32,996 nucleotides of DNA, taken from the IMG/VR virus record IMGVR_UViG_3300032304_000896, positions 1-32,996 of that record. One strand, 5' to 3'. The notes under the pieces were generated by a model, which saw nothing but the letters and a program-made list of their open reading frames with translations, was not told where the DNA came from and did no database searches. This stretch comes from a virus. The translations under genes and the position numbers were made by a program. Of this stretch, positions 3,861 to 32,996 are shown one piece after another. Each line of letters starts with the position of its first letter. Position 1 is the first letter of the stretch.

Positions 3861-4090
3861 AAGCGCCGCAAAAATCCTTAAAGGATTGGGGCGACCAAAA
3901 ATGGAGAACCAAAAGTGGAAAACCGTCTAGTAAAACTGGCGAACGATACCTTCCAGAGGCTGCGATCAAAAGTCTCAGCTCTTCTGAGTACGCTGCGACA
4001 ACACGTGCAAAACGTGCTGGCAAAGCTAAAGGGAAACAATTCGTAGCCCAACCAAAAACAATTGCAAAGAAAACGGCAGGATATAGATAA
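3857..4090 (+). CDS. Basic protein, second half of DUF5872-like module
   Basis: Translation starts at TTG 3857, overlapping the endonuclease stop as TTGA, with AAGGA at 3844-3848 upstream. The 77-residue protein begins with SLKDWGDQKWRTKSGKPS, continues with TGERYLPEAAIKSLSSSEYA, and ends with GKQFVAQPKTIAKKTAGYR. This order is strongly conserved in a phage and algal-virus protein family that I recall as following the GQWSARKAQ half found at the end of the gene at 2759. The protein is very basic, has no cysteines and probably binds nucleic acid. The unusual TTG start and the 4-base overlap fit a gene that became independent when the endonuclease gene inserted. Confidence 0.8.
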   Translation: MKAPQKSLKDWGDQKWRTKSGKPSSKTGERYLPEAAIKSLSSSEYAATTRAKRAGKAKGKQFVAQPKTIAKKTAGYR

Positions 4091-5022
4091 TGGCTAAGAC
4101 CACCGGCACCACAGCTTTTGATCTCGACATGAACGACCTCATTGAAGAGGCGTTTGAGCGTTGCGGTCAAGAGCTGCGCACGGGCTATAACTTTCGCACA
4201 GCGCGGCGGTCTTTGAACCTGTTGACGATTGAGTGGGCAAACCGTGGCCTGAACTTCTGGACTGTAGAACAGGGCCAGATTCCGATGGTGACGGGCCAGG
4301 CTATCTACCCCATGCCCACGGACACAATCAACCTTCTAGACATGGTTATACGTCAGAGTAACGCCACGTCTAACCAGATCGACATCAACATCAGCGGAAT
4401 TTCTGAATCGACCTACATGAGCCTGCCAAACAAGTTGGCACAAGGTCGCCCGATTCAAGTTTGGTACAACCGTCAATCTGGTCAAGAGAACAGCACTACG
4501 GTTACCCTTAACGGAACTATTTCATCTACAGCTACCACAATCACGTTGTCTAATGTGGACAACTTGACAACCGCTGGGTTTATCAAGATTGATAACGAGA
4601 CAATCAGCTATCCCAACGTTGATCCAGTAAACAACCAGTTACTTAACTGTGCTCGAGGACAAAACGGCACGACTGCCGCAGCGCATACAACTGGCGCCGC
4701 CATAACCGTGCAAAACTTGCCCGCTATTAACGTGTGGCCCACACCTAACGCCCCTGGCGACCAGTACATGTTTGTGTACTACCGCATGCGCCGTATTCAG
4801 GATGCTGGTACGGGTGTGACAGTGCAAGATATCCCATTCCGCTTTATCCCCTGCATGGTGGCTGGGCTGGCTTATCTGTTGAGCATGAAGCTGCCAAATG
4901 TTGATCCACAGCGCGTACTGGGTCTAAAGGCCGAGTACGAACAGCAGTGGGATCTAGCACAGTCAGAAGATCGCGACACCTCTCCGTTGAGGTTTGTGCC
5001 AAGAAACATGTTCTATGCCTAA
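4090..5022 (+). CDS. Head-tail adaptor / tail tube-A-like structural protein
   Basis: The ATG overlaps the upstream TAA by one base. Residues 10-60 (DLDMNDLIEEAFERCG, RTARRSLNLLTIEWANRGLN, FWTVEQG) form the helical core seen in phage connector-completion proteins such as the P22 gp4 and T7 gp11 types. The C-terminal part (DIPFRFIPCMVAGLAYLLS, then a long helix) fits the same fold. Between them, residues about 133-208 form an inserted beta-rich module. Its core is the repeated TTITLSNVDNL, IDNETISY, and LLNCARGQNGTTAAAH pattern, which I recall in many unrelated phage structural proteins. The inserted module probably projects from the ring. The protein is predicted to bind the portal or seal the tail. 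The family assignment is by pattern only. Confidence 0.75.
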   Translation: MAKTTGTTAFDLDMNDLIEEAFERCGQELRTGYNFRTARRSLNLLTIEWANRGLNFWTVEQGQIPMVTGQAIYPMPTDTINLLDMVIRQSNATSNQIDINISGISESTYMSLPNKLAQGRPIQVWYNRQSGQENSTTVTLNGTISSTATTITLSNVDNLTTAGFIKIDNETISYPNVDPVNNQLLNCARGQNGTTAAAHTTGAAITVQNLPAINVWPTPNAPGDQYMFVYYRMRRIQDAGTGVTVQDIPFRFIPCMVAGLAYLLSMKLPNVDPQRVLGLKAEYEQQWDLAQSEDRDTSPLRFVPRNMFYA

Positions 5023-5949: not shown

Positions 5950-6927
5950 ATGAATTACATTGAACTGTTCAACACCATTCAGTCGTATACGGAAAATACC
6001 TTTCCGGAGTTCACCGCTTCTAACGCAGACGCGGTTACGCCTACTGAACAGATCAATCGCTTCATTGAGCAAGCCGAGCTTCGCATCTATAACACGGTGC
6101 AGTTCCCGTCTCTTCGTAAGAATGTGACAGGTAACATCACATCAGGTAACAAGTACCTGAAAACCCCCGACGACTTCCTTGCCACGTATTCCTTGGCTGT
6201 GATTGACGCATTGGGCAACTACGAGTACTTGTTAAACAAGGACGTGAATTACATTCGGCAGGCGTACCCTAACCCAACAACAGATGTTGGCATCCCCAAG
6301 TATTACGCTTTGTTTGGCCCATCTGTGCAAAGCAATGTCATTACGAATGAACTTACATTTCTTCTTGGCCCAACACCTAATGCAAACTACACGGCGGAAC
6401 TGCATTTCTACTACTACCCTGACTCCATCGTACAAGCAGTTATCTCATCTTTCGGGACGTTAACAGGCGGCTCTGGCTACACCAACGGCGTATACTACAA
6501 CGTGTTGTTAACCGGTGGTAGTGGCTCTGCGGCTTATGCAGACATCACTGTGAGTGGTGGTGCTGTGGTGGGAGTTGTTATTCGTAACGGCGGATGCTTG
6601 TATAAAGTTGGTAACGTGTTATCCGCAGCAGTGGCCGATATTGGCGGTACAGGAACTGGATTCTCTGTTCCTGTGGCGGCGGTGACAAACGTAACCGGCA
6701 CTGCGTGGCTGGGCGATAACTTTGATACGGTGCTCTTGTATGGCGCACTGGTTGAGGCATACACCTACATGAAGGGTGAGACAGACATGCTTGCCTTGTA
6801 TGACGGCAAATACAAAGAAGCTCTTGCACAAGCCCAGCGCCTTGGTGATGGTCTGGAGCGTAGCGATGCTTACCGTAGCGGGCAGTATAGAGTGGCTCCG
6901 CTACCACAAAATAATGGGGTTCGGTAA
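5950..6927 (+). CDS. Phage adaptor protein (DUF6682-like) with inserted beta module
   Basis: The 325-residue protein starts one base after the previous stop. The N-terminal helical core (IQSYTENTF, then INRFIEQAELRIYNTVQFP) and the block KYLKTPDDFLATYSLAV match the phage adaptor family I recall as DUF6682. The C-terminal WLGDNFDTVLLYGALVEAYT and YMKGETDMLALYDGKYKEAL complete it. The core is interrupted at residues about 162-250 by a Gly/Ser/Val-rich segment that contains GGSGYTNGVYYNVLL and DITVSGGAVVGVVI, a beta repeat found in many phage structural proteins. In relatives I recall, FYYYPDSI runs almost directly into WLGDNFD. It is a second connector or neck component that probably pairs with the one at 4090. 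The stop overlaps the next start by one base. Confidence 0.82.
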   Translation: MNYIELFNTIQSYTENTFPEFTASNADAVTPTEQINRFIEQAELRIYNTVQFPSLRKNVTGNITSGNKYLKTPDDFLATYSLAVIDALGNYEYLLNKDVNYIRQAYPNPTTDVGIPKYYALFGPSVQSNVITNELTFLLGPTPNANYTAELHFYYYPDSIVQAVISSFGTLTGGSGYTNGVYYNVLLTGGSGSAAYADITVSGGAVVGVVIRNGGCLYKVGNVLSAAVADIGGTGTGFSVPVAAVTNVTGTAWLGDNFDTVLLYGALVEAYTYMKGETDMLALYDGKYKEALAQAQRLGDGLERSDAYRSGQYRVAPLPQNNGVR

Positions 6928-17431: not shown

Positions 17432-17652
17432 TGATTTATATCCCCGTGCTGTATATTTGCATTGGACTGGATTGTGCATTTTTTCAGTCAGAGATTTACA
17501 CGCTAAACGAGCAAAAGTGCGAGCAAGAAATTGCACAACAGAAGATTGAACTTATTAAGCAAGGCAGAACGGTTCAAGCAATTTGTGTAGATGTAAAAAT
17601 TAACTTGGAGAAAAAATCAGATGTTACCTATCGTAGCCTCCCTCCTAGGTAG
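17428..17652 (+). CDS. Small exported or membrane cysteine protein (74 aa)
   Basis: ATGA at 17428 overlaps the previous stop. The first 19 residues (MMIYIPVLYICIGLDCAFF) are a hydrophobic signal-like or membrane segment. The rest is soluble with four cysteines in total (C11, C16, C31, C53). A family with similar hydrophobic start and spaced cysteines is found in the same place in related phages that I recall, and it may be an outer-membrane or periplasmic lysis partner. No lipobox is recognised. The last 32 bases overlap the holin gene at 17621. Confidence 0.72.
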   Translation: MMIYIPVLYICIGLDCAFFQSEIYTLNEQKCEQEIAQQKIELIKQGRTVQAICVDVKINLEKKSDVTYRSLPPR

Positions 17653-18133
17653 CCTAGCCCAAAACGGCTTGACATTGCTATCCAGCGCCATCCAAGCCAA
17701 GGGCAAAGACGTTGTTGAAAAAACCTTGGGCGTAAAGATACCCGACAACCCGACCGCAGAAGATGTCAGCAACCTGCGCCAGCTTCAGTTTGAGCATGAG
17801 GAGCGCCTGCTTGAGCTAGGTATTGAGAAGGCCAAGATGGAGCTGGCTGAACTGGAGCTGTTTGCCAAGGCTGCGCAGAACGAGGACGATAACGTCACAG
17901 ACCGCTGGAAGTCTGATATGAACAGCGATTCCTGGCTGTCCAAGAATATCCGCCCCATGAGCCTGATTGCCATTTTTCTAGGCTACTTCTTGTTTGCCAT
18001 GATGTCTGCCTATGGATACAACGCCAACGAGTCTTATGTCACCTTGCTGGGTAACTGGGGGATGCTGATAATGGGCGCATACTTTGGTGGGCGCACGATT
18101 GAAAAACTAGCTGATATGAAAGCCAAAAAATGA
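17621..18133 (+). CDS. Holin, 3-TM gene-transfer-agent type
   Basis: GGAG at 17607-17610 lies 10 bases before ATG 17621. The N-terminal 22 residues (MLPIVASLLGSLAQNGLTLL) are hydrophobic, the middle is a charged helix, and residues about 95-110 contain TDRWKSDMNSDSWLSKNIRP, the hallmark that precedes the membrane helices in the GTA-type 3-TM holin family. Two membrane segments follow at about 113-131 and 139-156, then GGRTIEKLADM. The assignment is strengthened by the next gene, an M15 endolysin, which overlaps by 4 bases. The protein would permeabilise the inner membrane at lysis. Confidence 0.88.
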   Translation: MLPIVASLLGSLAQNGLTLLSSAIQAKGKDVVEKTLGVKIPDNPTAEDVSNLRQLQFEHEERLLELGIEKAKMELAELELFAKAAQNEDDNVTDRWKSDMNSDSWLSKNIRPMSLIAIFLGYFLFAMMSAYGYNANESYVTLLGNWGMLIMGAYFGGRTIEKLADMKAKK

Positions 18134-18471
18134 GTTTAAGCACCGAACAAGCTGCATTTTTGCTGGACATGTGCAAGCTAATCCAGTACGCTACAGACCA
18201 AGGGTTTGTGGTGACCGGCGGGGAACTGGCTCGTACACCCGAGCAGCAAGCCATTTACTTCAAGACGGGGCGGTCTAAGACCATGAATTCCATCCATCTG
18301 AAACGATGCGCCATAGATCTGAACTTCTTCAAAGATGGCAAGATCATTTGGGATAAGGCAATACTTGCCCCCTTGGGAGCTTATTGGGAAACCTTGCACC
18401 CCAAGAATCGTTGGGGCGGCAACTTCAAATCGCTGGTGGATTGCCCTCACTTTGAGCGCAATGTTGGTTAA
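18130..18471 (+). CDS. M15-type peptidoglycan peptidase (endolysin)
   Basis: The ATG overlaps the holin stop by four bases. The 113-residue enzyme carries the zinc-binding motif S-x-H-x-x-x-x-A-x-D-L at residues 54-64 (H56 and D63) and the third ligand H107 in CPHFE. G-G-E-L-A-R-T-P-E-Q-Q at 30-40 is the conserved N-terminal block of the L-alanyl-D-glutamate peptidase group, and WGGNF at 95-99 precedes the last helix. Length fits a single-domain phage endolysin without a binding module. No signal peptide is seen, so access to the cell wall depends on the holin. Confidence 0.92.
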   Translation: MSLSTEQAAFLLDMCKLIQYATDQGFVVTGGELARTPEQQAIYFKTGRSKTMNSIHLKRCAIDLNFFKDGKIIWDKAILAPLGAYWETLHPKNRWGGNFKSLVDCPHFERNVG

Positions 18472-21013: not shown

Positions 21014-22012
21014 ATGGCAATGGGCGGAGTTGGTGAAGCGGCGCTGCTTGGCGCGGCAATGGGTGGTGGTTCTGCGTTGCTGACTGGCCGCGATCCACTT
21101 CAAGGCGCTCTGATGGGTACGCTTACTGGTGGTATTGGCGGTGCTGTCAGTCCGGCTCTAAGCGCATTGACGACCGCCGCTCCTGCGGTCGCGACAACTG
21201 CTGCTACCAGTATGGCTCCAACTGTGGCTAATGCGGCTTTGTTAAATTCCGCACAAGCTGCCGCTGGGAACGCTGCAATTAATGGGGCGATAAATACAGC
21301 ACTTCCGCTTACAGGCGATTTGGGTATTGCTGGTTTAGCTAACAGCGTTATGGCTCCCGCCGTGCCTAGTGCTTTTGCGCCTCTTGCGACTGGCGCTGCT
21401 CCTATTTCGGCTGTACCTATGGCATCTGCGACCCCACCAGTTGACGATTCCTTTCTGGGAGGCATGAAGAAGTTTGCGGACAACCCACTGGCTTCTTTAA
21501 TGAACAATAAGTTCACGGCAGGTGCGTCTGCATTAGCCGGCGCTAGTGCAAAGAAGAAAAAAGAAGAAGAGGAAGAAAAGTACTCTGGCCCACTCAGCCG
21601 CTTCAAGTACAACCCAGGCTCGTATCGCCCATCGGGTTATGCTGATGGTGGTATTACTTCTTTGGGCGCTGAAGGTTACGACCGCATGGTTGGTGAGCAG
21701 CCTATGTACCAAGCAATGGCTCGTGGTGGTATCGCTGATTTGGGCAGCTACTCTGATGGTGGCCGCATGTTAAAAGGCCCCGGTGACGGCATGTCTGACA
21801 ACATCCCTGCCACTATTGCGGATAAGCGCCCTGCACGTCTGGCAGATGGTGAGTTTGTTATTCCTGCTGATGTGGTTTCCCACCTCGGTAATGGCTCTTC
21901 TGATGCAGGTGCCAAGCAACTCTACGCAATGATGGACAAAGTGCGTAAAGCGCGTACTGGTCGCAAAGCTCAAGGTCGCGAGATCAATCCCCGCCAATAC
22001 ATGGCTGCGTAA
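21014..22012 (+). CDS. Ala/Gly-rich internal or ejection-type protein (332 aa)
   Basis: GAGGAGA at 21002-21008 precedes ATG 21014. The first 140 residues are Ala/Gly/Thr-rich hydrophobic, with several stretches that could enter membranes (ALLGAAMGGGSALL, GTLTGGIGGAVSPALS). A Lys/Glu run (KKKKEEEEEK) follows at about 179, then two 'G-G' elements (YADGGITSLGAEGYDRM, MARGGIADLGSYSDGG). The C-terminal block MLKGPGDGMSDNIPATI and KRPARLADGEFVIPADVVSHLGNGSSDAG is a well-known phage motif found in proteins thought to be packed in the virion. Hydrophobic repeats plus this motif fit a membrane-active ejection protein, but this is inference. Confidence 0.74.
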   Translation: MAMGGVGEAALLGAAMGGGSALLTGRDPLQGALMGTLTGGIGGAVSPALSALTTAAPAVATTAATSMAPTVANAALLNSAQAAAGNAAINGAINTALPLTGDLGIAGLANSVMAPAVPSAFAPLATGAAPISAVPMASATPPVDDSFLGGMKKFADNPLASLMNNKFTAGASALAGASAKKKKEEEEEKYSGPLSRFKYNPGSYRPSGYADGGITSLGAEGYDRMVGEQPMYQAMARGGIADLGSYSDGGRMLKGPGDGMSDNIPATIADKRPARLADGEFVIPADVVSHLGNGSSDAGAKQLYAMMDKVRKARTGRKAQGREINPRQYMAA

Positions 22013-22021
22013 GGAGACACG

Positions 22022-23026
22022 ATGGCTGCCCCTACACCAAAACAGATTTCTGACTATTATGCCAAGTATGGCATTGACCCAGAGCAGAGGGGTATGAGCG
22101 GAAAGCTTTTGCGGGATACGCCCGGAACAATGGCTCATACGCTAGGGCAACAGTTAATCTATGAACTTGAAAACAAGCCCGCTGCCACTTCCGGCGGTCC
22201 TGCTCCTACTGCTCTAACTCCAGAACAGAGACAAGCAAACATAGCTCGAGATCTAGCGTTATCTCAGATACGTGGTGCCCGCCCATCTGGTCAGGACTCC
22301 CAGTTTTATCAACCAGTATTTCAACCGCAGTACACCAACTACGCTACAACAAACCCATTGGGCGTAAGTCAATACGGCACACCAATGACGGTTCGTAGTC
22401 TGGTAGACAGTGCCTATGCTGGTGTTGGGCGATATGGTTCTGGCAATCAAATGAATCAAGTTGATCCCGGTGGCCGGCAGTATTGGGAGAATTCGTTAAA
22501 TTCTGGCGCTCTTAACCCACAAGACTTTTTTAACACGTTTAGCAGTGTTATTAATCAAGCGCGGCAAGACCAGAGCAATCCGGCATATAGTCAGTTTTTG
22601 CAAAATCAAACTGGTTACAGTGGCGCGGACTTTGGTAGGGGTTACGCACAACAGCCTATGCCACGGATGCAAGCGCCATTCAATCCTTATACAAATCAGT
22701 ATCAAACACCGTTTAGCTATCAGCAGCCGCAATATCAACAACAGCAGTACAGCCCGTTTAGCAATGCTGGCCAGCGGTTGCAGCAGCAGGTTAACTATTA
22801 TTCCCAAGGCAATCAGCCATCTCTTACACAGCCGATGTCTATAGAGTATCCCCAGCAAATGCAAACGCCATTTAGCTACCAACAGCCTATGCAACAACCT
22901 GCGATACAACCAAACTACGGACCTAGCCAAGCAATCGTAGGTAGGTCTTCCCAAATGCGTGGCACACCCAACGTAATGCGTCGTGCTGAAGGCGGGATTA
23001 CATCGTTGTTAAAGAAAAGCAAATGA
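22022..23026 (+). CDS. Gln/Pro/Tyr-rich internal or ejection-type protein (334 aa)
   Basis: AAGGAGA at 22011-22017 lies 4 bases before ATG 22022. The N-terminus has a conserved helix PTPKQISDYYAKYGIDP followed by a low-complexity region rich in Gln, Pro, Tyr and Asn, including QTPFSYQQPQYQQQQ and a second QTPFSYQQPMQQP. The C-terminal RRAEGGITSLLKKSK carries the same G-G-I-T-S-L element as the previous protein and is strongly basic. Such sequences occur in internal virion proteins of environmental phages I recall. The stop overlaps the next start by 4 bases (ATGA). No enzymatic domain is visible. Confidence 0.74.
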   Translation: MAAPTPKQISDYYAKYGIDPEQRGMSGKLLRDTPGTMAHTLGQQLIYELENKPAATSGGPAPTALTPEQRQANIARDLALSQIRGARPSGQDSQFYQPVFQPQYTNYATTNPLGVSQYGTPMTVRSLVDSAYAGVGRYGSGNQMNQVDPGGRQYWENSLNSGALNPQDFFNTFSSVINQARQDQSNPAYSQFLQNQTGYSGADFGRGYAQQPMPRMQAPFNPYTNQYQTPFSYQQPQYQQQQYSPFSNAGQRLQQQVNYYSQGNQPSLTQPMSIEYPQQMQTPFSYQQPMQQPAIQPNYGPSQAIVGRSSQMRGTPNVMRRAEGGITSLLKKSK

Positions 23027-23454
23027 ATCTAACTGTGCGTCCTGTTGATGTTAATTACGTCCATCAAACATGGCCGCTGGTAAAGCCGTTTCTTGAAGAA
23101 GCTTTGCAAAAGGGTGGAGATTTCCCTGACTGGGCTGCTGGCTATACGATTGAGCACATTCAACTGTTTGTTGTCTCAGGGCAATGGTTGCTTTTGGTGG
23201 CCGTAGATGAAGAGAACATAGTTCATGGTGCTGGTACGGTGTCGTTGATAAATTATCCATTGCACCGCGTCGCATTTTTTACCACCATTGGCGGAAAACT
23301 TATTTCCAATGACGACACTTTTGAGCAGTTAAAGGCGCTGTTGAAGACGCATGGTGCAACAAAAATTCAGGGCTATTGCCGAGAAGCTATGGTACGTCTT
23401 TTGAAACGCTATAACTTTGAACCGCGCAACACTTTAATAGAGGTACTCGTATGA
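23023..23454 (+). CDS. GNAT-fold protein (T7 gp13-like)
   Basis: ATGA at 23023 overlaps the previous stop. The 143-residue protein shows the GNAT core pattern: an N-terminal helix with PLVKPFLEEAL, a strand WLLLVAVDEENIVHGAGTVSL, the next strand RVAFFTTIGGKLI, a helix DTFEQLKALLKTHG, and the C-terminal A-T-K-I-Q-G-x-C-R-E-A-M-V-R-L-L-K-R-Y-N-F. In this phage family, which includes T7 gp13, the last block is the hallmark, and acetyl-CoA binding is often not demonstrated. It lies between genes for internal virion proteins, consistent with a virion-assembly role. The four-base overlaps on both sides indicate coupled translation. Confidence 0.82.
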   Translation: MNLTVRPVDVNYVHQTWPLVKPFLEEALQKGGDFPDWAAGYTIEHIQLFVVSGQWLLLVAVDEENIVHGAGTVSLINYPLHRVAFFTTIGGKLISNDDTFEQLKALLKTHGATKIQGYCREAMVRLLKRYNFEPRNTLIEVLV

Positions 23455-25115
23455 ATTTCTTAAAATATTGGAAGTGGTTTTTCTTCAACCAATTTTTTCT
23501 ATATGCTGGTGGTGGTGATGGCGGCGGTGGCGGCCCAACGACAACAACGGTTAATCAATCCAACATCCCTGAGTGGTTACGCCCTCAGGTTGAAGGCATC
23601 ATTGGTGGCGCTTCACAAGAGCTGTTTGATTACACGGTAGACGAAAACGGCAACTACGTTCTTAAAGGTGCCAAGCCGTTCGTGCCTTACAGCGCCAACG
23701 TAAGAGATTACACAGCGGGGTTTAGCCCCCTGCAACAGCAAGTACAAGCTAATGTGGCCAACTTGCAAATGCCCGGCCAGTTTAATCAGGCAACGGGTTT
23801 TGCTAATGCTGCTGGCCAAGGTGGACTTGATTCTGCTAACCAAGCTTATGGATATGGTAATGCGGGCTTTCAGTCTGGCCAAATGGGCCAACAACTGGGT
23901 ATACAAGGCGGTCAGTACTACGGAAACATGGGTGCGCAAGCTGGTTTGCAAGGCCAACAATCTGGTTTGTTAGGGCAGCAACTAGGCATACAAGGTGGTC
24001 AGAACTACGGCGGCATGGGCGCAGCTTACGGTCAACAAGGTGCAGGTTATGGTGCGCAAGCCGCTGATGTAGGACAGATGGGTCTTCGTGCAGAGCAGTA
24101 TGGCCGCAATGTTTCCGGTCAAGCGGAGAACTACGCTCGTCAAGCGGCTGGTATGGGTGACCTGTACGGTCAGATGGCTACAAGCCCCAGCACGTATCAA
24201 GCATACATGTCGCCTTATCAAGAGGCAGTAACAAATGTTCAACTTGAAGGTTTGCAACGCCAAGCTGACATTGCCGCAAACATGCGTAAATCCCAAGCTG
24301 CTCGTGCGGGTGCTTATGGTGGTTCTCGTCAGGCTATTGAGAACGCTGAAGCTAACCGTGCGCTTGCCTCTCAAATGGATGCAGTCCGCGCCCAAGGTTT
24401 GCAACAAGCTTATCAACAAGCTCAAGGCAATATTTTGCAACGCTCTCAGTTAGGACTACAAGGTCTTCAGGGTGCGCAACAGGGTCTGGGCACTGCTTTG
24501 CAAGGTGGTCAATTGGGTCTGTCGGGTATTGGTACTGCACTGCAAGGACTACAAGGCGGTATGCAGGGCTCTGGTCTAGGTATTCAAGGTGCTCAAGCAG
24601 GGCTTCAAGGTGTCAATGCTCAACTGGCTGGTACCGCTCAAGGTATGCAAGGTGCTCAAGCCGCTATGCAGGGCGCAGGTGTTGGCTTATCTGGTGTGGA
24701 TCGTCAACTGGCCGGTACTGCCCAAGGTATGCAAGGCGCTCAAGTGGGTCTGCAAGGCGTGTCTGGCGCACAAGCCGGTTACGGTTTAGCTGATCGAGCC
24801 GCAGGTACGCTTGGTACTTTGGGTCAACAGCAGCTTGCTGCACAGACTGGCATCTTGGGTCTACAGAATCAAATTGGTGGACAGCAACAGCAGCAAGAAC
24901 AGCAGTACATCAACCAAGCGATTCAGAACTTTGCACAAGCACAAGAAAATCCAATGCAAAGATACAACCAGATCAATGCGCTGGTGCGTGGTTATGCATT
25001 ACCCGGCACTACAACATCGCAGTATCAAGCCGCACCTAGCTTGTTGAGTCAAGTTGGTGGTGCTGGCATCGCTGGTCTGGGTTTGTATAACGCCATGAAC
25101 CCCGCCAGAACATAA
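23451..25115 (+). CDS. Gly/Gln-rich internal virion/ejection protein (554 aa)
   Basis: ATGA at 23451 overlaps the previous stop. Residues 1-18 are aromatic and hydrophobic (FLKYWKWFFFNQFFLYAGGG), then GGGGGPTTTTVNQSN. The first half contains FSPLQQQVQANVANLQ and a Gly/Gln/Tyr-rich repeat region in which QLGIQGGQ recurs 29 residues apart. A helical centre (SPYQEAVTNVQLEGLQRQADIAANM) carries the conserved KSQAARAGAYGGSRQAIENAE motif of phage internal proteins. The second half is a long repeat region of GLQG/AQLAGTAQGMQGAQ units. The order 'membrane-like start, Q/G repeats, KSQAxRAGAxGGSRQ' is the usual form of DNA-ejection or internal core proteins in this kind of phage. The role is inferred. 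Confidence 0.8.
   Translation: MNFLKYWKWFFFNQFFLYAGGGDGGGGGPTTTTVNQSNIPEWLRPQVEGIIGGASQELFDYTVDENGNYVLKGAKPFVPYSANVRDYTAGFSPLQQQVQANVANLQMPGQFNQATGFANAAGQGGLDSANQAYGYGNAGFQSGQMGQQLGIQGGQYYGNMGAQAGLQGQQSGLLGQQLGIQGGQNYGGMGAAYGQQGAGYGAQAADVGQMGLRAEQYGRNVSGQAENYARQAAGMGDLYGQMATSPSTYQAYMSPYQEAVTNVQLEGLQRQADIAANMRKSQAARAGAYGGSRQAIENAEANRALASQMDAVRAQGLQQAYQQAQGNILQRSQLGLQGLQGAQQGLGTALQGGQLGLSGIGTALQGLQGGMQGSGLGIQGAQAGLQGVNAQLAGTAQGMQGAQAAMQGAGVGLSGVDRQLAGTAQGMQGAQVGLQGVSGAQAGYGLADRAAGTLGTLGQQQLAAQTGILGLQNQIGGQQQQQEQQYINQAIQNFAQAQENPMQRYNQINALVRGYALPGTTTSQYQAAPSLLSQVGGAGIAGLGLYNAMNPART
23886..24010 (+). repeat. QLGIQGGQ repeat pair, period 87 bases
   Basis: Two similar segments encode GQQLGIQGGQ-(Y/N)-Y-G-x-M-G-A. 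Their CAACT motifs lie at 23892 and 23979, a period of 29 residues. The bases between copies differ at several synonymous sites. Confidence 0.75.
24621..24752 (+). repeat. QLAGTAQGMQGAQ repeat pair, period 84 bases
   Basis: The segment encoding QLAGTAQGMQGAQ occurs at about 24621 and 24705 (28 residues apart). The surrounding 24460-24780 encodes further degenerate GLQG and GAQ units. The two copies differ by a few synonymous bases, so they are fairly recent or are homogenised. Confidence 0.78.
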
Positions 25116-25124
25116 GGAAACTTC

Positions 25125-26660
25125 ATGAGCCTCAATAGCCTACAAGATGATATGTCACGCCGTGCCGCTTCGATGGCGGCTATGGCTAAACGCGCCACCA
25201 ATCCACAAGACATTCAAGCTATACAGAAAAATCTTGTTGATGGCGTTCAGAACGGCTCGATCCAACCGTATGTTGGTATCCCACTGATTCAAGAACTTAC
25301 CCAAAGGCTGGCTGAAGTTAAGACTCAGATGGCGCAAACTATGGCCGGTGCTGGGATGCCACAAGCCCCACAAGGCGCTCCGATTGCCCAACAGGTAATG
25401 CAACAAGCCGTCCAAGCAGATCAGCCTCAAGGTCTTGAATCCCTGCCGTCCAATCTGCCACAGGAATATGCGGGCGGTGGCATTATTGCGTTTGAAGATG
25501 GTGGTGCGGTACAGCGCTTTCAGACGGGCGATTTAGTGGATGAAAGATTCAAACGTACCAGTTCCTATTATCAGCAGCCACAAGAAGAGCCAGATGTACT
25601 CAAGCGCCCTCCCCTTACCATCCAAGATCAAGTTAGACAGTATCGGGAGCTCATGGAGGCCATTCCTAAAGGCGCTAGTCAGACAGAGTATGAAGAGTAT
25701 CTAAAGAACCGATCTGGTAATGCAGAGGCCACCAAGAAGCAAGACTTGAATCTGGCTCTGGCGCAGTTTGGCTTGAACTTGGCGGCAGGAAAGTCTCCAC
25801 GCGCCTTAGAAAACTTGGGCGAAGCTGGTATCAAAACGCTGCCAGCAGTGCAAGAAGCATACAAACAGCGCAGGCTTGCAGATGAAACAGCGCTCAGAGG
25901 TCGTGCTGAGCTTGATCGCATGTCTCGTGCTGAGCAACTTGAAGCACTCAAGGGCGGTGTTGGCTTGTACGGCAAAGAGCGTGAGATTGAGGCCGAAGAG
26001 AAGAAAGCAGAGCTGCAGCGTCAAAATGCTTTAGCAGTTGCCAAATTACAGAGGGAAGGCTATAAGCCTACAGACCTAGACAACTATATTCGTAACTATG
26101 TTACTAATGCAATAAATACTGGCTCCACTCGTTCACCAGAAGCTCTAGCGTTAGAAGCTACTGAGAAATATCCCGGTTTTGTAGTGAGGAGAGATATTGC
26201 AGGCATGCAAGTGGGAGCGCAAATAGCAGGTCAAAATGTGCAAGCAGGCATTGCCGAAGGAAATCAAGCCTTGACCGGTGCAGGACAAATCTTAAATGCG
26301 CAAACTGCCGCCCTGAATGCGTGGTCTAAATTAATGGACAGCAGAAATTCAACAAGCAAGGAATTTAAATCGCTGGAAAAACAAGATAAAGCCAATGCGG
26401 CACAGGGTAAGCCCTCAACGTTGGCAGACGACTACAGGAAAAAGTGGTTTGAGACATATACGCCAGGTGCTCAGCCCGCTCCAGCCGCTCCAAAGGCTCC
26501 GCCCCCAGCGCCTGCTCCGCCTCCACCCAAAGGAGTTGCTCCGTCTATTTCCAGCGTGACAGGAGCGCCGGCGGGATCAAAGATTGGCGCGTACACTCCG
26601 AAGGGCTGGGAAGTTAAAGATAAAAACGGCAAATTGATTGGCTACGCTGGGAGCAACTAA
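25125..26660 (+). CDS. Internal virion/ejection-type protein (511 aa)
   Basis: AAGGAAA at 25114-25120 precedes ATG 25125. The N-terminal 100 residues are helical (SLNSLQDDMSRRAASMAAMAKRA, LIQELTQRLAEVKTQMAQT) and resemble the usual start of phage internal proteins. The motif EYAGGGIIAFEDGGAVQRFQTG at about 115-136 is a landmark that I recall from many environmental phage proteins. The centre (LNLALAQFGLNLAAGKSPRAL, then long charged helices to about 310) fits a coiled-coil core protein. The C-terminal 80 residues are Pro/Ala-rich with PAPAAPKAPPPAPAPPPPKG and end in GWEVKDKNGKLIGYAGSN. The stop overlaps the start of the giant ORF by one base. The role is probably virion-internal. Confidence 0.76.
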   Translation: MSLNSLQDDMSRRAASMAAMAKRATNPQDIQAIQKNLVDGVQNGSIQPYVGIPLIQELTQRLAEVKTQMAQTMAGAGMPQAPQGAPIAQQVMQQAVQADQPQGLESLPSNLPQEYAGGGIIAFEDGGAVQRFQTGDLVDERFKRTSSYYQQPQEEPDVLKRPPLTIQDQVRQYRELMEAIPKGASQTEYEEYLKNRSGNAEATKKQDLNLALAQFGLNLAAGKSPRALENLGEAGIKTLPAVQEAYKQRRLADETALRGRAELDRMSRAEQLEALKGGVGLYGKEREIEAEEKKAELQRQNALAVAKLQREGYKPTDLDNYIRNYVTNAINTGSTRSPEALALEATEKYPGFVVRRDIAGMQVGAQIAGQNVQAGIAEGNQALTGAGQILNAQTAALNAWSKLMDSRNSTSKEFKSLEKQDKANAAQGKPSTLADDYRKKWFETYTPGAQPAPAAPKAPPPAPAPPPPKGVAPSISSVTGAPAGSKIGAYTPKGWEVKDKNGKLIGYAGSN

Positions 26661-29600
26661 TGCGATTCGTACCACTTTCGGAGCTCGAAGAGAAGCCGAA
26701 AACCTTTACGTTCGTCCCGCTGGAGCCAATCCAATCGGAGCCCATCCTTTCCCCTGAAGAGTTGATGATGGGGTCAATTGGCGCTCCCAATACAGAGCCG
26801 CCGCCAAAACCACGCAAGCCGTCCAACGTGCCCGAAATGCGGGCGTATGAGCCGTCAATTGCTGATCAGTTTCTCAATCTGTTTCCCGGTGATAGAGCCA
26901 AGTCCGCCAATGAAGCTAATGCTAGGCGTATAGCAAGAGAGCAGGGCATTTCTGTAGACGAGGCTTATCGTCAAATGAAAGAGGCCGTAGGTGTTAGAGG
27001 CCCCATGGGTGCCCGTCCATCTGGTCAGCCCATGTTTAACCCCGAGGGTAGAGCGCCCATCAAGGCGGCTGTTGAAGCCACGCCATATGTTTTTGAGGGC
27101 ATTAAGAAAGCGCCAGCTGGTGCAGCTGAAGCGACTTTGCGCGCCATTCGTGGCGGTGCGATTGAAGACTCTATAGATCAAGGCTTCTTGGATCAGATCA
27201 TTACCAACATGGCGGATGACAAAGACAATCTGCCATTTGACCCCAACTACCAAGGCTTCCAAGGGTTGGGGAAATCACTGGGTTTTAGTTTGGCCTCCAT
27301 GGTTTCATCTGCTGTTGCGGGGACGGCGGCTACCGTAGCAACTGGCGGTAACGTGCCAATCGGTATTGGCGCAGGCATGGCCGCGTCAGGCACTATGGCT
27401 TACCGCGCCAGTAAAGATGATTTCTTAAATCGTTTGCGGGACAAATTAAACAAAGATTCCGAGCGGTTGTACGGAACTAAATTAACTACAGAACAATGGC
27501 AGGCTGCTCGAGATGAGTTTGATGCCGAGGCAGTCAAATACGGCGCGTGGGAAGCTGTGCCTGAGGCTCTGAGTAATGCCATCTTCTTGAAAGCATTTGC
27601 CAAGCCCGCCTTTACAGCGGGATCTAAGAAATTACAAGGCTTGATGGATAAGGCTGGCGCACTGGCTGTAGAAAATATCACTGAAACTGCTACTGGCTAT
27701 GGTCAGAATGCCGCGGAATTCAGGGCTGGTTTGACCAAGGATGAGATTAGTATCGTTGATGCATTCAAGCAGCAGTTCATACAGACCGGCGTGATGATGG
27801 GCGTGATGGGCGGCGGCATGAAAGGCAAGCAGCTAGCTGAGAAGTTTTACAACGACCAAGTACTCCCTCGCGTCAACCCAGGTTCTGCGTTGGCAAAGGC
27901 TATCAAGGCTGACATCGATGCGGTTGCGTATAGTCCAGAGGCTATTCGGCAAGAGGCTGTTAGAAGACTGCGTCCTGATCAGGCTCAATATGAAATGCAA
28001 GGCTTGGAGCCAGTTCCGTCTGTCCGCCCAGCGACCATCACGCCTCCGGAAGAAGAGCCCACAGTCGCTCCTCCCGCAGTCACTCCACCTGTTGCAGGTG
28101 CGACTAACCTTACATTTGTCCCGCTTTCCGAGGCTCCCAAGCCCGGTGGTCGGGTAGAGCCCAGCTTATCGGAAGCTCCAATCACCTTGGCTCCCGAACC
28201 TCGTGGACGGGTAGAACCGCCGCTTGGTGAAGAGTCATTGCCTCCTGTGCCGCCAGCGATTACGCCGTCAAAGGTGGAGGCTGTTCCGGGCATGATGACA
28301 GATGAAGATCTGGCTCAGCCGGAAAATCTCACTATAACACCTGTTACAGTGACCGAGCCTGAAGTAACACCTGCTGCTCCTGCTGAGCCCACCCTTGCGG
28401 CGGCCTCACTGCCTGAAACGCCAACAGTACCGCCGGCCCAAACGCCAAAGCTGTTCGAGCCGACCCCCGCTGAGCACCAAGCGCAGGACATGAGCGTTGT
28501 GGCGTTACCAGTTAAAAACCTGACGCTGTCTAAAGATGTGCCGCAATTCAAAGCTGGCGCGTCTGACAAGGGTGTAGTTGAGCCACTAAGTGGGAAGTTC
28601 ACCCAAGAGGGTGTAGCTCCTATTGCCGTGTGGCGCAGATTAGACGGGTCGATGGAGGTCATCTCTGGCCGTCACCGCCTTGACTTGGCCAAGCGTACAG
28701 GCACCGAGCTGATCAATGCGCAGGTTTATGACGAAGCTAGCGGCTTTGACAAGGCCAAGGCTGCTATTTTGGATGCCGAATTAAACATCCGTGATGAACA
28801 GGGAAAGGTTAAAGACTATGTCAACTACTTCAAAGCGAGTGGTACCGACCGCGAAACCGCTGACGCAAAAGGATTTCTGGCAAGGACTAAGGGCAAGAGG
28901 GGTTTCACAATCGCAGATCAAGGATCAGATGCTCTCGTTGCCGCCATTAATTCCGATCAAATCGGCGACGAAGCGGCGTACTACGTTGCGATAAATGCAC
29001 CCAAGGATGAGCGTTTACAAAACGTAGGACTTAGAGCCATCATGGACGGCAAGTCTATGAACACCGCTGTGAACACTATGCAGGCGGTGAAGGCCATGGC
29101 GGCTGAGCAAGACACAACCACCGACATGTTTGGCTTTGACGATAGCCTGATCAAAGAAGCGCAAGAGATGGCAAAGATTGCATCTAAGATGCAGCAGTCC
29201 ATCCAGACTCGGTTAGCTGCTATCACTGGTGCCGCCAAAAATCCCGCTATGGCAAAAGCAGAGGGTATCGATGTGCGGGACCCTGACGCAATCAAGCGTC
29301 GCATCGAAGAGCTCAGAGCCCAGAAAGCTGCACTTGAGAACTGGTCAACAAGTCCAGAGCTGGTGGCTGAGATCCGTGCGGCCCGTGGGGTAGAAGCGCC
29401 CCAGTTGGAATTGCGTGGAGAAACAGAAGCAGAGATACGAGTCAGAGAGGCCACTCAAGATGCAGACCGTCAAGCGCAAGAAGCAAGAGACATAGCAGAT
29501 CGGGAAAGAGATTTCTTCCAACTGCAACCTCAGGTGGCCGAGCGTGAAGAAGCGCCAACGATGGACATGTTTGCGGGCGAGGCTGCGCCGTCTGCTGAAT

Positions 29601-32600
29601 ATCAAGCCGCCAGTGAATTAGCCAACCGCGCAGGTGCTCAGTTTAGAAAAGTGCAAGAGGCTTATCGTAGTCAAGAGATTGGCGATGACGATTTCTTGGC
29701 GGGAAGAAAAGTTTACGATGCCGCCATGGCAGCTTTTGACAAGGCTGTAAAGAAAGAGCAGGGTGTAGTTGAACCAGTAGAAGATACGCAAGAGCGAATT
29801 ATTAGCATGACTCGCAAAGAGTATCGTGAAGACAAGGAAACATTGGGCAAAAGCAATCACCCGTCTTTGTCTATTGAGCTTGAAGGCAAAGAGCCAAAAT
29901 CTTTAATAAGCCGCCATGGCGAAAAAAATGTTCGTTTCTTAGGTCGTCTTTATGGCTTTACAACCAAAGACATTAAGGGCATTGCCAAAAAACTGATTGA
30001 GCAAGCCAACAACATTCAGTTGGTGAAAAAATATTCTACCGACGCGCTTAAGTCCATGACAAAAGCAGAATTGGCGCCAATCCTTAAGCAACTAGACCTT
30101 TCTGGCTATGGTCAAAAGTGGCAACTAGTAGAAAAAATTACGCGCTATACGCCAGATATTGTTCAAGCATTTAACCGAAGACTGCAAGACGCCAAGCACC
30201 AAACAGCTGTGACCAACGCGTTGCGCCAAGGCAAGGATGTGCGCGATGAAGTTTTGAAGGACTACCCTGAGCTTGTGCCTTTTGTCCGGGAGCGTGGCAG
30301 CGATATGTACAACAGCGCAATTAGTCAAATGGCGCTTAAGGAAACTTCAAACTTAACAGGGATGAACTGGACGGAGCATGCCGATAGTTTGCGGGAAGAC
30401 GTAAAAGACGAGCAGGATCCAAAAACCAAGCAAGTTTGGAATGATATTGCCGATGAAATTGACAGACGGTACGAGCAAACTTTTGCCAAGCGAGCTGACA
30501 TAGCAAATAAATTGGCCACAGCCACTGCGCCAACCATGGAAAGCATGATTGCTGAGCAAAAGCGCATAAAGGAAGAAGCTGCCGCAGAGGCCGTCACGCC
30601 CGCCGCTGAACTCACCACCAGCGAGCGTGAAGCAGAGATCAAGAAGATCAATGCCGGCATCAAGCGCTTGGCTCTGGAGCAAATCAAGCTTCCCGTAGAA
30701 GATGAAGTCAGAGAAGCAGAGATTGACAAGGAGATGTCTGTACTGATTGATCGCTTGAAAGAGCTGCAAGGCAAGCCCAAACAAGCACGTCCCGCTGTCG
30801 TTGAAAAAGCTCCCGTGTTTTCAGAGACAGAACTGACTGACATGCAAAACGAGCTGGTCAAGCTGCAACAACGAAAGAGCGTCATGATTGGCGACACATC
30901 TTTCGTTGATAACGAGATTGAAGATATTAAAGATGCGCTGCGTGATGCGGGCATTGACCCTCGAGAGTTTGCCATCGAGGCCAACGAAGCGCAGGGCGAA
31001 GACATTGTGAACGATGAGCAAGCGCCAGATAACCTGCCGTCCAATCAGCGTTTGCTTTTAATGCCATGCAGCGACATGAAAGGCCCAGCCAAAGCTACAG
31101 CTATGGAGCTTTACAAGGGCGTGTTCTTCCAAACATACAAGTCCAATGTCCAGCCAGGCGCTTTCCCGTTGGTGGTGATCTTGTCTGCCAAGCACGGCTT
31201 CATCAACACTAACCAAGAGATTGCCCCTTACGACGAGGTTATGTCTACGGCCAGAGCGGACACCATGCTCGCCAACTTACCAAAGTACATAGCGAACATC
31301 AAGATCCCAAGCGGTATCACTGATGTGATGATTGTGGGTGGCAAAGAGTATCAACGCGTTATGCGGGCGGCTGTTGCAGAGTTACAGTCGTTTGGCTTGG
31401 TCAGTCCTGAGGCATCTATCAATGCAACATCGGGCGGCATTGGAGTGCAGCGCCAACAACTGGGTGAGTACCTGCGGGCTATGCAGCCAACCGTGCCGGT
31501 TATTACTCAGGAACCTTTTACGATTGACGTGGAAGCCAAAGTCATTGATGAGAACGTCAAGCGCCTACCCGCACCTGATGTTCAAAAGTTAGAAAAACAT
31601 TACGGTGTTAAGCGAGGCACAGATGATTTCGTCCAGATGGTTAAGGACGATATTGTTCGGTTTGCCAACGAGGGTGCTGAAGCTGTGGCCAAGGCCATTC
31701 GGGAGATCATTCGCAAGTTGCATGCTGGCGTGTTGTCGGCTGCCATGATCTTTAACCCCGTCAACATTTCTTCTCCTGAGTTTTTATTCCATCCAAGTCA
31801 AACATATCGGGAAGACAAACAGGTGTTGGCCGAAGTGCCTGAAGATGTGCTCCCACGCATGTCGCCCAGTGCAAGACAGGCTTACAAGGTTTTATATCCC
31901 AGCATCAAAGATCGCTTGATTAAGAACGACAAGCTGATGGTGATTGCGGATAAGCCGGCGGCTCGGGTGTTTGTGTTCAAGCCTGATGGCTCTTTGTTAC
32001 TTGATAGGAAAGTTCTTTACGGCTCGACCATTGGCGACTTTTACAAAGGCAACACAGATCTACCGCAGAACCGGATCACGCCTGCCGGCTTGTTCACGCT
32101 GGGTCTGAGGGATGCAACACGTAGCGCTGGAGAAGCTCGCACAGCTGGTGAATACGACTTTAAGAAAGTGTTTGTGCTGGATAAAGCCATCGGTGGCGAG
32201 TACAGCGTCACACTGATGCATTCGGTTTGGCTGAATGAATCAGATGCCCAAGCCAGAGCGAAAGCCTTGCTGACCCCTGATGCTGCTGACTCACGCTATT
32301 CATTCGGTTGCATCAACGTGGACAAACCCACCTACAGCTTCTTGATCAACAACCACCTCCAGCAAATGGATGGGGCATCTTTGTTTGTGGTGCCGGATGA
32401 TCCTGCTAACTTGGCGGCCATGTTGGCTGGCAAGGAGAATGTTGGTGATGAGTTGAATCGCACCACCTTTAAGACGCCAACAGTAGAGATCAAGAAGACT
32501 GGTCAGTTGCCTAGCGCCAAAGCGAGAGAGGCTACCCAGTTGGCTGCTGGTGAGCGCCGCAAGAAGCCCAGTGATTTCTTGTTCAACCTTGAGCGGGGCG

Positions 32601-32996
32601 AGTTGCGCAAAGAGCAGATCAAAGAATACGCAACCATGCGAGCAGCGCTGGCCCGTGTACCTAAACAAGTGGCGGCAGGTAAAGCTGACTTGAGCATGCA
32701 GGCAGCCGTCACCCGCTTGATGCAACAAGCGCGTGACTTGAGCGCCATGATCAAGGTGACAAAGCCTCGCCTTGACAGCGCTGAGCAATTCTTAGCCAAG
32801 GCGGCAATTGAGTTTGACAAGGGCAACATTTCTGAGGATGTGTTTAACGTCATCAAGACGGCCTACGACAAGATGCCAGAGCTGTTGGGCGGCTTACTGC
32901 TCAGCGTTAAAGCACCAGCGGGCAGTTCGCGCGGCAGAGCAGCCGGCCAATTCTTGCCGTTCACCAGAGTTGTTCGTCTGTTCAAAGGAACCAGCG
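26660..32996 (+). CDS. Giant multidomain polyvalent-type protein, 3'-truncated
   Basis: ATG 26660 overlaps the upstream TAA, and the frame stays open for 2,112 codons to the right edge. FVPLSE/FVPLEP motifs occur at residues 3-8, about 17 and 486. A Gly/Ala/Val-rich, membrane-like stretch lies near 205-250. A ParB-like nuclease domain (about 611-730) has its signature S-G-R-H-R-L-D-L-A-K-R-T-G at 669-681. A SAP-like motif (MTKAELAPILKQLDLSGYGQ) starts at 1133. ALRQGKDVRDEVLKDYPEL at 1187 is a polyvalent-protein landmark. A DUF6884-like domain (about 1464-1610) has MPCSDMKG and ILSAKHGF. An L,D-transpeptidase domain (about 1755-1895) has H1854 and S-F-G-C-I-N with C1884. This is a virion-delivered polyvalent protein by architecture, and the end is missing. 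Confidence 0.85.
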   Translation, partial: MRFVPLSELEEKPKTFTFVPLEPIQSEPILSPEELMMGSIGAPNTEPPPKPRKPSNVPEMRAYEPSIADQFLNLFPGDRAKSANEANARRIAREQGISVDEAYRQMKEAVGVRGPMGARPSGQPMFNPEGRAPIKAAVEATPYVFEGIKKAPAGAAEATLRAIRGGAIEDSIDQGFLDQIITNMADDKDNLPFDPNYQGFQGLGKSLGFSLASMVSSAVAGTAATVATGGNVPIGIGAGMAASGTMAYRASKDDFLNRLRDKLNKDSERLYGTKLTTEQWQAARDEFDAEAVKYGAWEAVPEALSNAIFLKAFAKPAFTAGSKKLQGLMDKAGALAVENITETATGYGQNAAEFRAGLTKDEISIVDAFKQQFIQTGVMMGVMGGGMKGKQLAEKFYNDQVLPRVNPGSALAKAIKADIDAVAYSPEAIRQEAVRRLRPDQAQYEMQGLEPVPSVRPATITPPEEEPTVAPPAVTPPVAGATNLTFVPLSEAPKPGGRVEPSLSEAPITLAPEPRGRVEPPLGEESLPPVPPAITPSKVEAVPGMMTDEDLAQPENLTITPVTVTEPEVTPAAPAEPTLAAASLPETPTVPPAQTPKLFEPTPAEHQAQDMSVVALPVKNLTLSKDVPQFKAGASDKGVVEPLSGKFTQEGVAPIAVWRRLDGSMEVISGRHRLDLAKRTGTELINAQVYDEASGFDKAKAAILDAELNIRDEQGKVKDYVNYFKASGTDRETADAKGFLARTKGKRGFTIADQGSDALVAAINSDQIGDEAAYYVAINAPKDERLQNVGLRAIMDGKSMNTAVNTMQAVKAMAAEQDTTTDMFGFDDSLIKEAQEMAKIASKMQQSIQTRLAAITGAAKNPAMAKAEGIDVRDPDAIKRRIEELRAQKAALENWSTSPELVAEIRAARGVEAPQLELRGETEAEIRVREATQDADRQAQEARDIADRERDFFQLQPQVAEREEAPTMDMFAGEAAPSAEYQAASELANRAGAQFRKVQEAYRSQEIGDDDFLAGRKVYDAAMAAFDKAVKKEQGVVEPVEDTQERIISMTRKEYREDKETLGKSNHPSLSIELEGKEPKSLISRHGEKNVRFLGRLYGFTTKDIKGIAKKLIEQANNIQLVKKYSTDALKSMTKAELAPILKQLDLSGYGQKWQLVEKITRYTPDIVQAFNRRLQDAKHQTAVTNALRQGKDVRDEVLKDYPELVPFVRERGSDMYNSAISQMALKETSNLTGMNWTEHADSLREDVKDEQDPKTKQVWNDIADEIDRRYEQTFAKRADIANKLATATAPTMESMIAEQKRIKEEAAAEAVTPAAELTTSEREAEIKKINAGIKRLALEQIKLPVEDEVREAEIDKEMSVLIDRLKELQGKPKQARPAVVEKAPVFSETELTDMQNELVKLQQRKSVMIGDTSFVDNEIEDIKDALRDAGIDPREFAIEANEAQGEDIVNDEQAPDNLPSNQRLLLMPCSDMKGPAKATAMELYKGVFFQTYKSNVQPGAFPLVVILSAKHGFINTNQEIAPYDEVMSTARADTMLANLPKYIANIKIPSGITDVMIVGGKEYQRVMRAAVAELQSFGLVSPEASINATSGGIGVQRQQLGEYLRAMQPTVPVITQEPFTIDVEAKVIDENVKRLPAPDVQKLEKHYGVKRGTDDFVQMVKDDIVRFANEGAEAVAKAIREIIRKLHAGVLSAAMIFNPVNISSPEFLFHPSQTYREDKQVLAEVPEDVLPRMSPSARQAYKVLYPSIKDRLIKNDKLMVIADKPAARVFVFKPDGSLLLDRKVLYGSTIGDFYKGNTDLPQNRITPAGLFTLGLRDATRSAGEARTAGEYDFKKVFVLDKAIGGEYSVTLMHSVWLNESDAQARAKALLTPDAADSRYSFGCINVDKPTYSFLINNHLQQMDGASLFVVPDDPANLAAMLAGKENVGDELNRTTFKTPTVEIKKTGQLPSAKAREATQLAAGERRKKPSDFLFNLERGELRKEQIKEYATMRAALARVPKQVAAGKADLSMQAAVTRLMQQARDLSAMIKVTKPRLDSAEQFLAKAAIEFDKGNISEDVFNVIKTAYDKMPELLGGLLLSVKAPAGSSRGRAAGQFLPFTRVVRLFKGTS

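Follow-up and report, generated by a model that had tools for sequence, protein, structure and literature searches.

IMG/VR virus record IMGVR_UViG_3300032304_000896 is a 32,996-base fragment, and its positions 1-32,996 were analysed as one stretch (hereafter the window). At its right end lies a giant open reading frame (ORF; 26660..32995, plus strand), in which 2,112 codons are open and which is still open where the window stops. A previous inspection of the letters (the sequence-only reading) had put the frame at more than 2,100 codons and had recognized ParB-type, SAP-like, DUF6884-type and L,D-transpeptidase signatures in it. The motifs it quoted were found at residues 669-681 (SGRHRLDLAKRTG), 1133-1146 (MTKAELAPILKQLD), 1468-1475 (MPCSDMKG), 1507-1514 (ILSAKHGF), H1854 and 1881-1886 (SFGCIN). 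The chance expectation for an open frame of this length is ~1e-44, and a chance frame was rejected as an explanation; the start codon ATG shares bases with the stop codon TAA of the gene before it (TAATG). As the window stops inside the gene, the C-terminal third of the protein can be read in relatives only. The whole gene is present on the near-identical contig L002 (L002:5072-15283; 3,403 residues), where the YkuD region is 95-99% identical to that of the window. With several unrelated effector-type domains (DUF6884, ParB-like, YkuD) combined in a single chain beside late phage genes, the giant is a polyvalent-type protein, and a YkuD domain indeed shares its chain with domains of DNA-acting type. 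The features are collected in Table 1.

The central YkuD domain was compared with homologues from initially 12 and then 62 viral loci. HSVW was part of a search pattern, and its conservation therefore partly reflects how the homologues were chosen; none of the patterns used contained the Cys motif. Taken alone, the domain of the window remains below the threshold of the PF03734 profile (E 0.035-0.047; 15 vs 23.4 bits). The profile is matched by 44 of 56 distinct homologues (best 5.4e-8), and four of 13 homologous records pass the curated cut-off. An AlphaFold model based on a 56-row alignment reached a predicted local distance difference test score (pLDDT) of 88.1 and a predicted template modelling score (pTM) of 0.84, and the first 49 matches of this model in the PDB (Foldseek) are all YkuD-fold proteins, including LdtMt2, DpaA, Bd1075 and Tlde1a. 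The sequence-only reading had stated beforehand that a missing YkuD match would overturn its assignment; profile and predicted fold agree on such a match and together confirm an L,D-transpeptidase-type (YkuD) domain in the giant protein.

At the sequence level, the domain possesses a catalytic-type cysteine within SxGC and an upstream histidine. Both residues are intact, as previously claimed, and invariant among the homologues (Table 1); they are spaced by 30 residues in every homologue, and the second position after the cysteine (Cys+2) is Asn in 62 of 62. The ratio of nonsynonymous to synonymous substitution rates (dN/dS) is ~0.06-0.08 (window vs L002 and L003), and the domain is under purifying selection. 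No close bacterial or archaeal homologue was found in 84,980 species genomes, and tblastn of the domain gave no match in 50,697 phage records. In the window and in nearly all relatives, the basic-hydrophobic segment preceding the domain, IIRKLHAGVLSAAMIFNP, resembles a signal anchor or an amphipathic helix.

The giants are almost devoid of cysteine. Among 60 distinct giants, 73 cysteines occur in 158,894 residues, and 59 of these are the YkuD nucleophile. The 14 non-catalytic cysteines correspond to 0.009% of the residues, compared to ~0.8% in the remaining ORFs of these loci. The YkuD nucleophile is the sole cysteine in 36 of the 45 giants that are complete (2,301-4,448 residues), and the 2,112 residues of the window contain only two, C1470 (DUF6884) and C1884 (YkuD). 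Most cysteines outside the YkuD domain are located in enzyme-type motifs, namely MPCSDMKG of DUF6884 and APPCTDF of C5-methylases. TGY codons amount to 0.5 per 1000 in frame, whereas the two alternative frames have 33 and 66; because TGC and TGT are so abundant there, base composition was rejected as the cause of the purge. The giants of relatives lacking YkuD are entirely free of cysteine (Pag-Yong1, 2,772 residues; Vibrio 1.183.O, 2,706; LASTA, 3,242 residues read; HTVC027P, 1,342). Near-absence of cysteine was seen across all YkuD giants and in L074-L079, and in L029, L026, L030 and L058 the only cysteine outside YkuD lies in the PPC motif of a methylase.

The virion RNA polymerases of N4-like phages are packaged, injected and devoid of cysteine, which has been proposed to be needed for passage through the tail and through the periplasm, where disulfides form (PMC2784036, PMC3715699, PMC3915230). 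These proteins of ~3,400 residues are packed in a podovirus head (PMC2784036, PMC3715699); the present giants resemble them in size and cysteine content but are without a detected RNA polymerase domain and keep a single catalytic cysteine. By this analogy we read the purge as a likely mark of injection. Because Cys1884 survives the purge of nearly all other cysteines, its retention is strong evidence that the residue is needed. The lone-cysteine pattern would be a strong and cheap signal that supports ejection and singles out residues that must be catalytic (C1884, C1470 of DUF6884 and the PPC of C5-methylases), and it may provide a functional clue for DUF6884, a domain of unknown function.

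Among the further domains read from the sequence, DUF6884 scored 46 bits against PF21818, above the cut-off of 30, in line with the earlier claim. This region is 45% identical to gp8 of Burkholderia phage KS14, and residues 1450-1660 as a whole resemble Burkholderia phage proteins of this kind. The ParB-like region is ~52% identical to a stretch in giant proteins of Vibrio/Shewanella phages. While the module of the window alone gave no significant match to a ParB profile, a 53% identical phage homologue matched ParB_N (8.7e-4), and the family profile aligned weakly with Noc (0.024). The putative ParB identity proposed by the sequence-only reading is hence supported through relatives and not by the window itself. 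A ParB match in L037 (6.4e-6) stayed below the cut-off. L009 represents an independent chain with both ParB and YkuD, in which ParB_N exceeds the cut-off and the ParB is of another type than the module of the window. The proposed SAP domain did not withstand the profile test (SAP_new25, 14.7 vs 26.3 bits), which leaves only a hint of it, and the surrounding 160-residue region (1040-1200) was not found in any other giant. The closest relative has, in its replication region, a separate gene for a ParB-like partition protein family (phrog_1033; L072:1664-2608, minus strand).

The giants swap modules. At the residue-1977 junction, where L002 carries an inserted cassette, the flanking DNA of window and L002 is 96% and 91% identical, and the insert matches ART-PolyVal (ADP-ribosyltransferase) at 4.8e-20. 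This cassette is cleanly present or absent between near-identical phages. L002 shows a GNAT-like stretch (6e-4, sub-threshold) at the place of the SAP-like stretch of the window, the L004 giant carries a methylase, and the giants L029, L026, L030 and L058 contain a C5-cytosine methylase domain at residues ~1270-1400. Of 35 relatives, 20 have LPD38 and 18 have ART-PolyVal. On the C-terminal side of YkuD, 34 of 53 giants carry an HExxH motif (0.5 expected by shuffling), with no Pfam zincin match at this place in L002; for the giant of the window, this part of the chain lies past the window end. Zincin-like processing peptidases are common, though not universal, in polyvalent proteins, and the motif would agree with this.

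The terminase of the L002 contig is 53-57% identical to those of 023Pt_psg01, DSL-LC04 and the Pelagibacter phages HTVC027P and HTVC023P, and its portal is 44-48% identical to those of the same phages over the matched part. The giant gene is the last of the structural block. In the cultured relatives a shorter giant, without YkuD by profile, occupies the same place after the structural genes and before an opposite-strand gene; these counterparts are annotated as 'DNA transfer protein', 'putative structural protein' or 'large polyvalent protein'.

We consider it probable, from sequence, model and analogy, that an HTVC023P-like podovirus packs the giant polyvalent protein in its virion and ejects it into the host together with the DNA, and that its YkuD-fold domain acts as a cysteine enzyme in the periplasm during entry, as a hydrolase or exchange enzyme rather than as a 3-3 cross-linker. 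The substrate would be the meso-diaminopimelate (meso-Dpm) region of peptidoglycan stem peptides or proteins tied to peptidoglycan, and local editing of the wall or of the tethers would let the ejection channel or the DNA through. The basic-hydrophobic segment before the domain may touch or cross the inner membrane. The ParB-like and DUF6884 modules and, in relatives, the methylase, GNAT and ART modules would act in the cytoplasm, perhaps once set free by the putative zincin-like protease that most relatives encode on the C-terminal side of YkuD. We infer ejection itself as well as place of action, substrate and reaction. Ejection with the DNA, already suggested by the sequence-only reading, is probably right in view of the cysteine purge and the place of the gene.

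The same reading had spoken of peptidoglycan cross-linking, and here the evidence leans another way, as the fold also houses hydrolases. A true L,D-transpeptidase (LDT), which would form 3-3 cross-links or attach a phage protein to peptidoglycan so that the wall is resealed after entry, would fit the best Foldseek E-values, which belong to mycobacterial LDTs, and SxGC with the next hydrophobic residue agrees with general LDT motifs. However, the His-Cys spacing of 30 exceeds that of the LDT motif HXX14-17(S/T)HGC (PMC9638812), and S-F/Y-G-C carries Phe or Tyr instead of the second His of this motif. In DpaA and L,D-carboxypeptidases, unlike in LDTs, the L3 loop is long and contains a helix (PMC10653827), and the AlphaFold model places a helix at residues 1863-1871, between His1854 and Cys1884. 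Position Cys+2 is Ala or Asn in most DpaA-like proteins and Arg in LDTs (PMC8263019); the Asn found here may not be exclusive to DpaA-like enzymes. Further marks of DpaA-like amidases are a conserved Lys83 in L1 and Tyr109 in L2. Because of the helical His-Cys loop and, less clearly, this Asn, the domain leans weakly towards a DpaA/L,D-carboxypeptidase-like hydrolase, and removal or exchange of groups (by a DpaA-like amidase or an L,D-carboxypeptidase) appears likelier than 3-3 cross-linking, so that we regard a true LDT as unlikely.

Several points weigh against the favoured reading of a periplasmic hydrolase or exchange enzyme. Asn at Cys+2 is presumably also present in mycobacterial LDTs and would then be a weak marker, and the best E-values among the fold matches are those of LdtMt2. 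The Foldseek matches reach only modest TM-scores, namely 0.30-0.37 relative to the query and up to 0.56 relative to the target, and sequence-profile searches of the PDB with YkuD profiles found no YkuD proteins; PDB searches with the whole ORF and with YkuD profiles gave only NHL-repeat matches on a 25-residue stretch, which were rejected as chance. Finally, we infer the periplasmic action of a domain that lies mid-chain. It might instead be a cytoplasmic effector with, for example, recycled muropeptides, precursors or a host protein as its target, since it is flanked by cytoplasm-type modules (ParB, DUF6884, ART). The cytoplasmic YkuD L,D-carboxypeptidase of Acinetobacter would be a parallel. 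A YkuD-family L,D-carboxypeptidase in wall recycling is reported in PMC8649774. Set against this, the basic-hydrophobic segment stands directly before the domain in nearly all members and suggests membrane contact, and a lysozyme-type entry enzyme was not found in the same phages (no SLT domain in 35 relative records), which makes a cytoplasmic effector quite improbable in our view. The weak single Pfam scores would suit a degenerate fold kept for binding or structure, but with Cys and His invariant, dN/dS at ~0.07 and a cysteine that outlasts the purge, we give this very little credence. Hardly credible is an intracellular or lysis-related protein of the infected cell that is not ejected: a lysis cassette does lie upstream, yet it comprises a separate holin and M15 endolysin, for which reason an endolysin role of the YkuD domain was rejected, and the cysteine purge, the place in the structural block and the homology of the C-termini to those of phage giants that bear the annotation large polyvalent protein speak against it.

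A bolder form of the favoured reading is that the phages of this group replace the usual lytic transglycosylase by an injected, periplasm-acting YkuD cysteine enzyme, which would release peptidoglycan-bound proteins or shorten the stems where entry takes place, and that a leftover cysteine in injected giants always marks a catalytic nucleophile. We put this forward tentatively and would sooner expect it to fail than to hold in full.

Like the polyvalent proteins described by Iyer et al. 2017 (PMC5512222), the present giants are very large, multidomain and encoded beside late genes; they share with them ParB, ART-PolyVal, LPD38/39 and methylase modules, HExxH motifs in relatives, and the fusion of a peptidoglycan-acting domain to DNA-acting domains. 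That such a fusion is unusual, as the sequence-only reading had remarked, does not hold in general, as a lysozyme+ParB fusion has been described (PMC5512222), but it does for YkuD: the text names lysozyme, SpoIID-like and DD-peptidase domains, no YkuD or transpeptidase, and leaves cysteine undiscussed. No publication was found that describes YkuD in polyvalent proteins, or cysteine as a mark of catalytic residues in injected giants. New here are YkuD in polyvalent giants and their cysteine purge; a peptidoglycan domain and ParB in one chain were already known. With the YkuD family PF03734 (LD-transpeptidases, Bd1075, Csd6, DpaA and the type VI secretion system effector Tlde1a) the domain shares the fold, Cys and His, and SxGC, but it is set inside a phage giant, has a 30-residue His-Cys spacing with a helix, Phe/Tyr before GC and an invariant Asn at Cys+2. 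The giants of DSL-LC04, HTVC027P, 023Pt_psg01 and Planktothrix phage Pag-Yong1 are alike in genomic place, related terminase and portal, and (almost) no cysteine; they differ in having no YkuD by profile and zero cysteine. Two UniProt metagenomic proteins of uncultured phages (BFVD) have the same predicted fold, A0A6J5S7V6, labelled as large polyvalent protein associated domain, and A0A8S5MBC9 (weak match, E 0.06), labelled as L,D-TPase catalytic domain; these labels are automatic, and no paper on either was found. YkuD is known but rare in phage lytic proteins, with 10 PhaLP entries and one gut endolysin.

To our knowledge, the wall enzymes that podoviruses carry in their virions cleave mostly glycan strands or peptide bridges. 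With the YkuD domain, a cysteine enzyme directed at meso-Dpm bonds or at the tethers of the outer membrane would join them, and passage through the Gram-negative envelope could be tested in a new way.

Table 1 Features of the giant ORF and its surroundings in the window (residues count from the start of the giant ORF).
Feature	Position	Strand	Evidence
Giant polyvalent-type ORF	26660..32996	+	open frame; full-length homologue L002
YkuD-fold (L,D-transpeptidase-type) domain, residues 1714-1935	31799..32464	+	
His1854, predicted catalytic	32219..32221	+	invariant in 63/63 homologues
Cys1884 in SFGCIN, predicted nucleophile	32309..32311	+	invariant in 62/62 homologues spanning Cys1884
Conserved basic-then-hydrophobic segment, residues 1683-1700, REIIRKLHAGVLSAAMIF	31706..31759	+	same distance before YkuD in nearly all homologues
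DUF6884 domain, residues 1466-1572, with Cys1470	31055..31375	+	PF21818 6.3e-12; phrog_5935 6.3e-26
ParB-like module, residues 595-907, SGRHR at 669-673	28442..29380	+	
SAP-like stretch, residues 1133-1163, unproven	30056..30148	+	SAP_new25 (best in Pfam), E 0.024, sub-threshold
Residues 60-376, related to the N-terminal part of the Klebsiella phage LASTA giant	26837..27787	+	41% identity
Short N-terminal peptide, duplicated (FVPLSE, FVPLEP)	26666..26728	+	
Cassette junction	32585..32594	+	583 nucleotides (~194 residues) with ART-PolyVal domain inserted in L002
Upstream block, five ORFs (332, 334, 143, 554 and 511 residues)	21014..26660	+	
Lysis genes, holin and M15 peptidase endolysin, separate	17621..18471	+	phrog_3427 holin 1.8e-13; Peptidase_M15_4 6e-8

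Four internal-type proteins had been proposed to precede the giant. The four larger ORFs of the upstream block contain no cysteine at all, and because of this they fit virion or ejection proteins, which they likely are; family searches of the block gave no matches, and the 143-residue ORF stands among them as a fifth. Promoter and terminator scans of the window were at or below chance, and no tRNA and no Rfam RNA were found in it. Two ORFs of the window, 4090-5022 and 5950-6927, match the SU10 adaptor family, consistent with a virion connector block. The M15 peptidase at 18130-18471, a likely endolysin of 113 residues, overlaps the end of the holin gene.

Duplicated short peptides are found at the N-termini of the giants of the window, L002, L005, L006, L007, L011, L042, L049 and L050, and perhaps serve as a packaging or docking tag. 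Many giants start with two to three such copies, whose sequence is phage-specific (FVPLSE, FxGQLDEP, IWDxLE, DLIQAGL).

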